A DNA stretch of 20,408 bases. Source: a virus. Location: IMG/VR virus record IMGVR_UViG_3300034198_002204, positions 1 through 20,408 of that record; one strand, given 5' to 3'. The notes under the pieces were generated by a model, which ran no database searches, had not been told where the DNA came from, and saw nothing but the letters and a program-made list of their open reading frames with translations. The position numbers were made by a program, and so were the translations under genes. Shown here in pieces: positions 5,875-10,449 of the stretch (position 1 is the first letter of the stretch; each line of letters begins with the position of its first letter).

Positions 5875-6229
5875 GGGAAAAGCCTTTCAATGAAAAAGTG
5901 GGGGAAAAATTGGGGGGAGTCCCCGCACCGCTAGGTGTGGGGTAGGGGGGCAAAGGGTCGCTTTGTCCGCGAGCGTGACGCGGCGCGATACCGTGCGCGT
6001 TGACGGGCGCGTTGTTGTGCGCTCGCGCCCATGGGTGACACGCTGCGATACCCCCTGCTGCGCACACGGCAGACACCTGTACAAAACCCATACGCTCGTC
6101 TGCGATTTGGACAGATGCGATTAAACGGCCTACAACGCGCTGAAGCACTGAGTGGCTACCCTTGCCTAGACAAACGGTTTTACCCGCCTTCCTGCGCCTT
6201 CCAGACGCCTTCCTGATGCCTTCGGTCAT
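5867..6229 (-). CDS. Doubtful open frame over the structured GC-rich segment
   Basis: A 120-codon frame starts with an ATGA overlap at the replication-gene stop and ends 8 bases inside the next gene, a position that fits a real gene. Its protein is unusual: Arg/Lys-rich at the start (RKASGRRRKAGK), then rich in His, Ala, Pro and Gly (HPWARAHNNAPVNAHG), with no domain. The DNA holds several hairpins and phased repeats. The frame may be a by-product of a non-coding origin or RNA segment. Alternatively it is a real, fast-evolving protein. I favour non-coding. Confidence 0.3.
   Translation of the reverse strand: MTEGIRKASGRRRKAGKTVCLGKGSHSVLQRVVGRLIASVQIADERMGFVQVSAVCAAGGIAACHPWARAHNNAPVNAHGIAPRHARGQSDPLPPYPTPSGAGTPPNFSPTFSLKGFSHD
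5921..5942 (+). repeat. Hairpin with 9-bp arms and GCTA loop
   Basis: CCCCGCACC, loop GCTA, GGTGTGGGG. The rightward RNA would pair all nine positions (one G-U). The leftward RNA has one A-C mismatch. No T-run follows, so it is not a classical terminator. It neighbours other GC-rich inverted repeats in the same segment. Confidence 0.5.
5951..5965. repeat. Short inverted repeat CAAAG-N5-CTTTG
   Basis: A perfect 5-bp inverted repeat with a GGTCG loop lies within the structured segment, 8 bases from the preceding hairpin. Confidence 0.35.
6005..6030. repeat. GC stem: GGGCGCG-N12-CGCGCCC
   Basis: A perfect 7-bp all-GC inverted repeat with a 12-base spacer. It would form a stable stem on either strand and belongs to the hairpin cluster downstream of the replication gene. 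Confidence 0.5.
6185..6224. repeat. Phased CGCCTTCC iteron-like repeats
   Basis: Three exact copies of CGCCTTCC (6185-6192, 6195-6202, 6206-6213) are followed by a degenerate TGCCTTCG (6217-6224). Starts are 10, 11 and 11 bases apart, close to one DNA turn, so the copies lie on one face of the helix. They sit immediately downstream of the replication-gene stop. The phasing suggests a protein-binding array, but no binding protein is proven. Confidence 0.5.
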
Positions 6230-7170
6230 CGCACATCTCGGCTGAGTTGCAGGATGCTGTCTGCCAGCAGGCGCGATGTCGGCGTCAGACCCTCGGCCTT
6301 GTACGCAGGCAGCAGAGTGTCCAGCGCGTCCGCGATCTGCGCGTCGGTCAGTCCGTGAGACTTCAATTCGACAACTTCGAGGTTGCTTAGAACTCCATAA
6401 GAGTTTTTATTATTAATATCTTCTTTAACCTTAGACTCCTTAATACTATCCTTAAGGACTTGTTCTTCTGCGTTCTGTGCAACCTCTGGGAGTTGCCTAT
6501 CAGGTTGCCTATGAGAGTCTTTTTGGACTGTCTCTGCGACTGTGCCAATGGCAACCTCTGCAGGTTGCTTATGAGTGCGCTTGGCTTTGGCCTTTGCGAT
6601 CTCCTCCTTCATCTTCTTGACGGTGCTTGTCTCGCCTTGTTTTGGCATGGTTCTCTCCTTCGGTTGGTTGGTTGATCTGAGTGCGCCAGCGACCATCTTT
6701 GCGATGCGCTGCTGGCTTTGTTTGTCAATCTCTTCTTGCATCTGCTGCTCCTTGATTGCTGGTGGTCTGGTGTCTTCAATTGTGTTGGTGACTGCCATCG
6801 CAGTCTCTGCGTCAATCGTTTGGTCGAAGATGACGCGCACTGTGTTTGAGCGCTCGCCTCTCCAGCCCTTTTTGATGACCTCGATGTAACCGGTGTCAGT
6901 AAGCAGCTTCATCTGCTTGGTGACGGCCTGGCGGCTGATCTTCAGGTCTTGAGCGACCTTGGCCTGGCTGACCCAGGTTATGCCGGCGCGGTTGCAGTAG
7001 CTGCACAGCACGATCAGACAGCGCAGCGTGCCACCGTGCAGCCTGTCGTCAGTGCCAGCCCTGATTGGGATGACCGCGAGCTTGCGTTGATCTGGTGGCG
7101 CGTCTTTTTGCTTGACCCTTGGCTTCTTGGGCAGCTCAAATGGCACGACATTAACTGGCACTGCGCTCAT
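6226..7170 (-). CDS. Lambda-O-like replication initiator candidate
   Basis: This 314-residue protein has an N-terminal winged helix-turn-helix (about 44-115). It includes LRCLIVLCSYCNRAGITWVS, the recognition-helix region LKISRQAVTKQMKLLTDTGY, and a wing containing WRGERSNTVRV. A hydrophilic, low-complexity linker follows (about 120-260). The C-terminal helical part (265-314) contains LTDAQIADALDTLLPAYKAEG. This two-domain plan matches phage replication proteins that bind origin repeats with the N-terminus and load helicase through the C-terminus. The DNA of the linker holds iteron-like repeats and an AT-rich island. A general transcription regulator is the main alternative. The stop overlaps the next frame as ATGA. 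Confidence 0.7.
   Translation of the reverse strand: MSAVPVNVVPFELPKKPRVKQKDAPPDQRKLAVIPIRAGTDDRLHGGTLRCLIVLCSYCNRAGITWVSQAKVAQDLKISRQAVTKQMKLLTDTGYIEVIKKGWRGERSNTVRVIFDQTIDAETAMAVTNTIEDTRPPAIKEQQMQEEIDKQSQQRIAKMVAGALRSTNQPKERTMPKQGETSTVKKMKEEIAKAKAKRTHKQPAEVAIGTVAETVQKDSHRQPDRQLPEVAQNAEEQVLKDSIKESKVKEDINNKNSYGVLSNLEVVELKSHGLTDAQIADALDTLLPAYKAEGLTPTSRLLADSILQLSRDVR
6380..6390 (+). repeat. Iteron-like element AGGTTGCTTAG
   Basis: This is one copy of the AGGTTGC(C/T)TA family found four times in the replication gene. It borders the AT-rich island on the side nearest the gene's 3' end. Confidence 0.45.
6391..6460. other. AT-rich island in the replication gene
   Basis: By my count 51 of 70 bases are A or T, in a genome whose genes are otherwise GC-rich. 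It encodes a hydrophilic linker (part of SKVKEDINNKNSYGVLSN) with little structural constraint. Flanking repeats on both sides make it a candidate DNA-unwinding element. Confidence 0.5.
6479..6575. repeat. Cluster of direct and inverted GTTGC iterons
   Basis: Direct copies are GTTGCCTAT at 6492-6500, AGGTTGCCTATGAG at 6502-6515 and AGGTTGCTTATGAG at 6562-6575. Inverted GCAACCTCTG copies lie at 6479-6488 and 6551-6560. The last pair forms a perfect dyad GCAACCT-N4-AGGTTGC at 6551-6568. The first two direct copies are 12 bases apart. The repeats also create a repeated peptide motif (QPAEVA / QLPEVA), so constraint on DNA and on protein could both apply. Confidence 0.55.
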
Positions 7171-9593: not shown

Positions 9594-9796
9594 CTACCAA
9601 ACTGATTAAGGCAAAGACCAACAAGCGTGGCATCAAATACGCATTGGGCACAGACGGCTCAACATTCAGCGTGTGGAAGCTCTGCGAAAACTACGCACCA
9701 CACCGCAAGGGTGGCATGTCACAGACATGGCGCTATGTCGAAAAGGGCATGACCCAAGACGCAGCCACCATTTTGTTCAACCGTCGCGGAGCTTGA
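9590..9796 (+). CDS. Small conserved phage protein
   Basis: This 68-residue basic protein begins MTTKLIKAKTNKRGIKYALG, followed by TDGSTFSVWKLCENYAPHRK and TWRYVEKGMTQDAATILFNRR. It looks like a compact alpha/beta domain rather than a helix-turn-helix. I recognise the motif style from small phage proteins but know no function. AGGAG precedes the ATG by 8 bases. As the first gene before the serine recombinase it could assist or direct that enzyme; this is position-based only. Confidence 0.7.
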   Translation: MTTKLIKAKTNKRGIKYALGTDGSTFSVWKLCENYAPHRKGGMSQTWRYVEKGMTQDAATILFNRRGA

Positions 9797-9798
9797 TC

Positions 9799-10449
9799 AT
9801 GACCAAATTCGTCGCCTATTACCGCGTTTCAACTGACCGCCAGGGTCAGTCTGGCCTCGGCCTTGACGCACAGCGCGCAGCTGTGGCCAAGCACATCGGC
9901 ACAGCAGAGCTGGTGGCAGAGTTCACCGAAGTCGAGTCTGGCCGCAAGAATGACCGCGAGCAGCTGGCTGCAGCTCTGGCCACCGCCAAGCGCACCAAGT
10001 CAATGTTGGTCATCGCCAAGCTCGACCGACTGGCGCGCAATGTCCACTTCATCAGCGGCTTGCTTGAGTCCAATGTGCCGTTTGTCTGCGCTGACATGCC
10101 CGAAGCCGACCGCACCTTCTTGCAGATGATGGCCGTGTTCGCTGAATGGGAAGCACGCAAGATCAGCGAGCGCACCAAGGCAGCGCTGGCCCAGGTCAAA
10201 GCACAAGGCCGCACGCTCGGCTGCCCAACACCAGAGATTGGCAGCGCAGCCGGCATCGCACGCATCCAAGCCAAGGCCGACGCCTATGCCCAGCGCGTTG
10301 GCCCAGTTGTGCGCGACATCATGAACCGCTGTGGCGCAAACACACTGCGCGACATCGCTGCTGAGCTGACCATGCGCGGCATCGAGACACCACGCGGCAA
10401 CACCGACTGGCGCGCCAGCCAGGTCAGCAACTTGCTCAAGCGCATCTGA
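9799..10449 (+). CDS. Serine recombinase (resolvase/invertase family)
   Basis: This 216-residue protein has the catalytic N-terminal domain of serine recombinases. YYRVSTDRQ carries R9 and the nucleophile S11, KLDRLARN carries R77 and R80, and EWEARKISERTKAALAQ leads into the long linker helix. The C-terminal helix-turn-helix region (about 165-216) includes TLRDIAAELTMRGIETPRG. Its length fits the small resolvase/invertase group rather than large phage integrases. Roles could be multimer resolution, inversion, or integration with a helper. No cognate crossover site was recognised. The start is ATG at 9799 with GGAG 7 bases upstream. Confidence 0.9.
   Translation: MTKFVAYYRVSTDRQGQSGLGLDAQRAAVAKHIGTAELVAEFTEVESGRKNDREQLAAALATAKRTKSMLVIAKLDRLARNVHFISGLLESNVPFVCADMPEADRTFLQMMAVFAEWEARKISERTKAALAQVKAQGRTLGCPTPEIGSAAGIARIQAKADAYAQRVGPVVRDIMNRCGANTLRDIAAELTMRGIETPRGNTDWRASQVSNLLKRI

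Follow-up and report, generated by a model that had tools for sequence, protein, structure and literature searches.

The repeats and the A+T-rich island found inside the initiator gene of an uncultured phage are very probably a replication origin that the phage carries within its own initiator gene, as judged by comparing the gene with its many relatives. The origin appears to belong to a known plan, that of lambda O and of the RepA_N initiators, in an initiator family of uncultured phages that is unannotated. The surprising part, and more interesting than the origin itself, is that the repeats covary with single residues in the recognition helix of the initiator.

The initiator gene and its relatives

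The window, i.e. the whole stretch of DNA that was analysed, is the 20,408-bp virus record IMGVR_UViG_3300034198_002204 (IMG/VR). Besides the initiator it encodes a large terminase subunit, a single-strand binding protein, a RuvC-like resolvase, a serine recombinase, a YqaJ-type exonuclease and a RecT-like annealing protein. The serine recombinase (9673–10449) consists of a resolvase domain and just the first half of a Recombinase domain, and the genes for the YqaJ exonuclease and the RecT-like protein come after it. The initiator gene and the parts of its product, as modelled with AlphaFold2, are:

6226–7170, minus strand: initiator gene, 314 aa, open reading frame with ATG at 7170 and the end of the stop codon at 6226
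6823–7032, minus strand: N-terminal winged helix, residues 47–116 (AlphaFold2, pLDDT mostly ~90)
6892–6933, minus strand: recognition helix, residues 80–93 (helix in the AlphaFold2 model)
6232–6384, minus strand: C-terminal three-helix domain, residues 263–313 (modelled on its own with AlphaFold2, mean pLDDT 89)

In the model the recognition helix begins with residue 80, and the linker residues 198–254 (pLDDT < 50) are modelled as disordered.

Profile searches matched the window initiator to PHROG 270 "replication initiation protein" (E 2.4e-9) and to PHROG 391 "O-like" (E 9.7e-6), which were found in 74 and 72 of 78 relatives, respectively. The winged helix gave matches to HTH_36 as well as to MarR-like and LexA-like profiles; for HTH_36 (PF13730) the window protein scores 23.2 bits, just below the cut-off of 25, and all 78 members match the profile at E ≤ 0.1 (best 1.2e-11). 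The Pfam matches to the window protein, taken up to E 1, did not include the RepA_N profile (PF06970), none of 20 phage records came above the cut-off of PF04492 (Phage_rep_O; two weak matches), a search of the NCBIfam profiles revealed no match near any cut-off and a sequence search of solved structures returned generic winged helices and weak matches only. When comparing structures, the N-domains of RepA_N initiators (4pql and 4pt7) were among the best matches of the winged helix (4pql: Z 8.8, rmsd 2.8, 87 residues), with common, generic winged helices scoring nearly alike. The fold search with the C-terminal domain gave no significant match and no recognisable helicase-loader fold. The best viral structural match, A0A8S5TBI0 of Podoviridae sp. 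ctwJH20 (46% identity over 305 columns), is annotated merely as a helix-turn-helix protein and probably belongs to the same family.

Relatives were collected by scans of IMG/VR and amounted, with the window gene included, to 81 non-redundant genes. A search of bacterial and archaeal genomes revealed no relative, and among annotated phages the single relative is gp55 of Methylophilales phage MEP301 (L014, 113–718), a distant and shorter protein of 201 aa annotated as hypothetical. This gene is without the repeat-bearing linker and shows no comparable repeat array; gp55 is probably the unrecognised initiator of MEP301.

Repeats and A+T-rich island in the window

The half-site consensus in the initiator gene is TAGGCAACC (gene sense), with six copies in the linker-coding stretch. 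At a threshold of at least 7/9 there are six matches to it in the 360 bp examined, where 0.86 would be expected from the window-wide rate. The features of the candidate origin are:

6563–6571, minus strand (direct): half-site TAAGCAACC, 8/9 to the consensus
6548–6556, plus strand (inverted): half-site ATGGCAACC, the other dyad arm, 7/9 to the consensus
6551–6568, no strand: dyad, the main iteron, with 7-bp arms GCAACCT/AGGTTGC and 4 nt between them
6503–6511, minus strand (direct): half-site TAGGCAACC, 9/9
6491–6499, minus strand (direct): half-site TAGGCAACT, 12 bp from the 6503–6511 copy, 8/9 to the consensus
6476–6484, plus strand (inverted): half-site TGTGCAACC, pairing imperfectly with 6491–6499, 7/9 to the consensus
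6391–6460, no strand: A+T-rich island, candidate unwinding element, 51/70 A/T
6381–6389, minus strand (direct): half-site TAAGCAACC, beyond the A+T island, 8/9 to the consensus

A base by base reading recovered the copies listed in the first-pass annotation, AGGTTGCTTAG at 6380–6390, AGGTTGCCTATGAG at 6502–6515 and AGGTTGCTTATGAG at 6562–6575, together with the inverted copies GCAACCTCTG at 6479–6488 and 6551–6560. The short copy AGTTGCCTA also exists, at 6491–6499 and not at 6492–6500 as first given, and of the dyad at 6551–6568, which had been called perfect, the 7-bp arms are so whereas the 4-nt centre, CTGC, is not symmetric. The window has a single GCAACC-N4-6-GGTTGC, at 6551; its inverted repeats of ~18 bp comprise one exact dyad and imperfect ones, and they are weaker than those of many relatives. 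The gene lies on the minus strand, a point that the first-pass annotation had left out.

The island of 51 A/T in 70 bases was likewise read as claimed and falls within the window's most A+T-rich 70-bp zone: all 70-bp stretches with at least 50 A/T in the 20.4 kb start at 6376–6405. The GC skew of the window, analysed as an origin marker, showed no turn at the repeat site. Two imperfect direct repeats of 18 nt (GTGACGCGGCGCGATACC and GTGACACGCTGCGATACC, at 5975–5992 and 6035–6052) are found 60 bp apart, directly downstream of the initiator gene.

Covariation of the repeats with the recognition helix

In the relatives the half-sites pair into dyads with 6-bp arms and spacers of 4–6 nt, and the genes can be sorted into the repeat classes GCAACC (14 genes), ACAACC (49) and GGACAC (14), while 4 of the 81 (L018, L081, L122 and L114) belong to none of the three. 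Two residues of the recognition helix predict the repeat class without exception across the 77 classified genes. At residue 80 all GCAACC and GGACAC genes have Arg and all ACAACC genes have Gln, the outer base of the repeat being G with Arg80 and A with Gln80. At residue 85 all GGACAC genes have Asn, and the GCAACC and ACAACC genes have Lys or Arg (Arg80 and Lys85 in the window initiator, encoded at 6931–6933 and 6916–6918). Among 146 N-terminal columns, residue 80 alone fits the ACAACC class in 76/76 (next best column 65) and residue 85 alone the GGACAC class in 76/76 (next best 71). The rule was derived from 52 genes and was then true in all 27 classifiable genes out of 29 later ones. Arg-G and Gln-A are the common major-groove pairings in DNA-binding proteins. 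We infer direct contacts of residues 80 and 85 with the bases. A literature search revealed no comparable residue-level account for a phage initiator, but it covered few subscription journals and the missing account is therefore weak evidence of novelty.

Three of the unclassified genes (L081, L122 and L114) have Arg80, Ser84 and Asn85 (helix SRQAISNQ) and carry TTGGTCAGCC-type repeats, of the form TTGGTCAGCCTAC...GTTGCG, without a clean dyad; they probably represent a further specificity class. Within the GGACAC class, 10 of the 14 genes (e.g. L023 and L073) keep 1–2 GGCAACC half-sites, the sequence of the window's class, beside the GGACAC sites in their linkers.

Helix and repeats could also have come to match by joint recombination in what is a true origin, in which case residues 80 and 85 need not contact bases. 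Mosaic exchange is known in comparable initiators (PMC8263062, PMC5703833), and in a tree from which helix and linker were left out, where the class changes ~11 times, the well-supported branches offer only five independent pairs for residue 80 and four for residue 85. The residues agree in 5/5 and 4/4 of them, respectively, with sign test p values of 0.0625 and 0.125, too few pairs for formal significance. Identities were also compared for pairs of genes alike in residues 117–198 (median 88–90% DNA identity). Within a class the identity of helix and linker is 96% and 83%, respectively, and between classes it falls to 58% and 55%, whereas residues 117–198, the stretch from helix to linker, are still 85–94% identical (88% overall) in between-class pairs. 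A single exchanged block is therefore no explanation, and joint recombination as the source of the match is considered unlikely, if a good deal less so than the alternatives below.

Position of the repeats and selection at the DNA level

The same covariation would be expected from a regulator binding its own gene, and the matches to HTH_36, MarR-like and LexA-like profiles would suit a winged-helix protein that represses its own gene with the repeats as operator, replication starting elsewhere. However, the sites are situated ~600–800 nt inside the initiator gene and not at a promoter, the PHROG matches are replication initiators, and in most relatives the sites lie next to the highest A+T content of the whole record. 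In 7 of 10 phage records that maximum is the gene's own A+T island, and across the relatives the A+T maximum begins a median of 13.5 nt past the last dyad. An operator in place of an origin is thus very improbable; autoregulation could be an additional role of the initiator.

As in the window, a half-site past the A+T island was found in many relatives. In many of their linkers a GAACACA or AACACAGARAACAC stretch recurs directly after the iterons and before the A+T island, and it may be part of the origin.

Synonymous shuffles, in which protein and codon usage were kept fixed, were performed on the window gene and on 51 genes of the family. In the window, the top 6-mer count of 5 was reached in 0.24% of 5000 shuffles and the 14 pairs of 8-mer repeats (shuffle mean 3.6) in 0.12% of 5000. 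In the linkers of the 51 genes 131 dyads were observed, where 400 shuffles averaged 14.8 and never exceeded 27. All three reading frames are used to encode the ACAACC dyad, giving the unrelated peptides TTSEVV, HNLEVV, AQPPEVV and TTSEGC. Ten phage records of 33–35 kb were available, and the eight with a classified initiator gene, when searched for dyads of their own class, contained 13 in 7.5 kb of initiator gene and 0 in 262 kb elsewhere (the ten-record totals, 9.3 kb of gene and 330.6 kb of rest, count two unclassified records that were not dyad-searched). Shuffles, reading frames and confinement together indicate that the repeats are kept as DNA, and in the initiator gene only; this selection, like the anatomy and the covariation, is demonstrated at the level of sequence. 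Conservation of the repeats beyond the protein sequence, which the first-pass annotation had proposed to look for in related phages, is accordingly strongly positive. Most window copies do stand in similar peptide contexts (HKQPAEV, HRQPDRQLPEV), but the idea that the repeats simply follow from a recurring peptide (HxQPxEV) or from codon bias is refuted by the shuffles, the three frames, the 0 dyads outside the initiator gene in classified records and the covariation with a helix >100 codons away.

Comparison with known systems

In lambda, the iterons and an A+T-rich region lie within the initiator gene O, and the iterons are 18-bp inverted repeats that bind two O molecules each (PMC6022878, PMC7466680). 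The window family is alike in having its repeats, ~18-bp inverted ones, and an A+T-rich stretch inside the initiator gene, but has another iteron sequence, stays below the PF04492 cut-off, comprises several specificity classes and is without a P gene in the records searched. In 20 phage records, which may be incomplete, no lambda P (PF06992), DnaC/IstB, DnaB or DNA polymerase A was found. The reading put forward at first, an origin inside the initiator gene, with internal iterons, an A+T-rich stretch and an initiator-iteron pair unlike that of lambda, is well supported. A lambda-type partner did not appear in these records, nor a recognisable helicase-loader fold in the C-terminal domain; to regard this domain as a helicase-loading part is a guess.

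The RepA_N plasmid initiators parallel the window family as closely as lambda O does. Rep of pSK41 (319 aa) has a winged-helix N-domain, a dispensable linker encoded by the origin, with the Rep boxes in the gene, and a separate C-domain that binds DnaG, and is DnaD-like (PMC5703833). Size (319 vs 314 aa), winged helix, origin-coded linker and separate C-domain are all shared with the window initiator, whose C-domain differs in consisting of three helices (~55 residues) with no clear match, and which has no RepA_N profile among its listed Pfam matches. The chimeric initiator of pPR9-type has an HTH_36 N-domain, as matched by all 78 members here, and its N-domain and origin region are exchanged together (PMC5703833); its host element, however, is a staphylococcal plasmid, and the comparison covers the N-domain. 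In the Vibrio satellite PLE, the DNA-binding domain of RepA varies in step with the semi-palindromic iterons, both are subject to swapping, and only cognate pairs replicate (PMC8263062). The covariation of an initiator's DNA-binding domain with origin repeats is common to both, but the PLE origin is intergenic and the PLE groups differ by whole domains, whereas the classes of the window family separate at single recognition-helix residues.

Proposed mechanism and significance

For the origin inside the initiator gene we propose that the N-terminal winged helix would bind the GCAACC half-sites, probably as a dimer per dyad, and that the complex, once assembled, would open the A+T-rich island next to them, where replication would start. 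As the searches revealed no phage-coded helicase, loader or family A polymerase, recruitment of the host replisome, including its helicase, would fall to the C-terminal domain. The repeats are placed in the gene between the parts encoding the N- and C-terminal domains, and the origin DNA encodes the linker, which is the least structured region of the initiator and disordered in the model; its codons would thereby be free to carry the repeats. The recognition helix and the repeats change in step.

Extra origin copies block lambda (PMC4488673) and the PLE origin is targeted by a phage nuclease (PMC8263062). With roughly even chances, a compact code, in which Arg80 reads G, Gln80 reads A and residue 85 sets the inner bases, would let the family switch its origin specificity repeatedly by way of a few helix residues and the internal repeats, possibly escaping origin-directed nucleases, decoy origins or competing phages.

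Origins of uncultured phages are rarely identified, and here one can be read from the sequence across many relatives. The covariation offers a concrete two-residue prediction of how an initiator matches its origin, and as the two residues predict the repeat without exception, the matching of starter protein and start site is directly testable. Since this match also constrains the codons of the initiator's own gene, the family lends itself well, as a case from nature, to asking how protein-DNA specificity changes without a dead intermediate.
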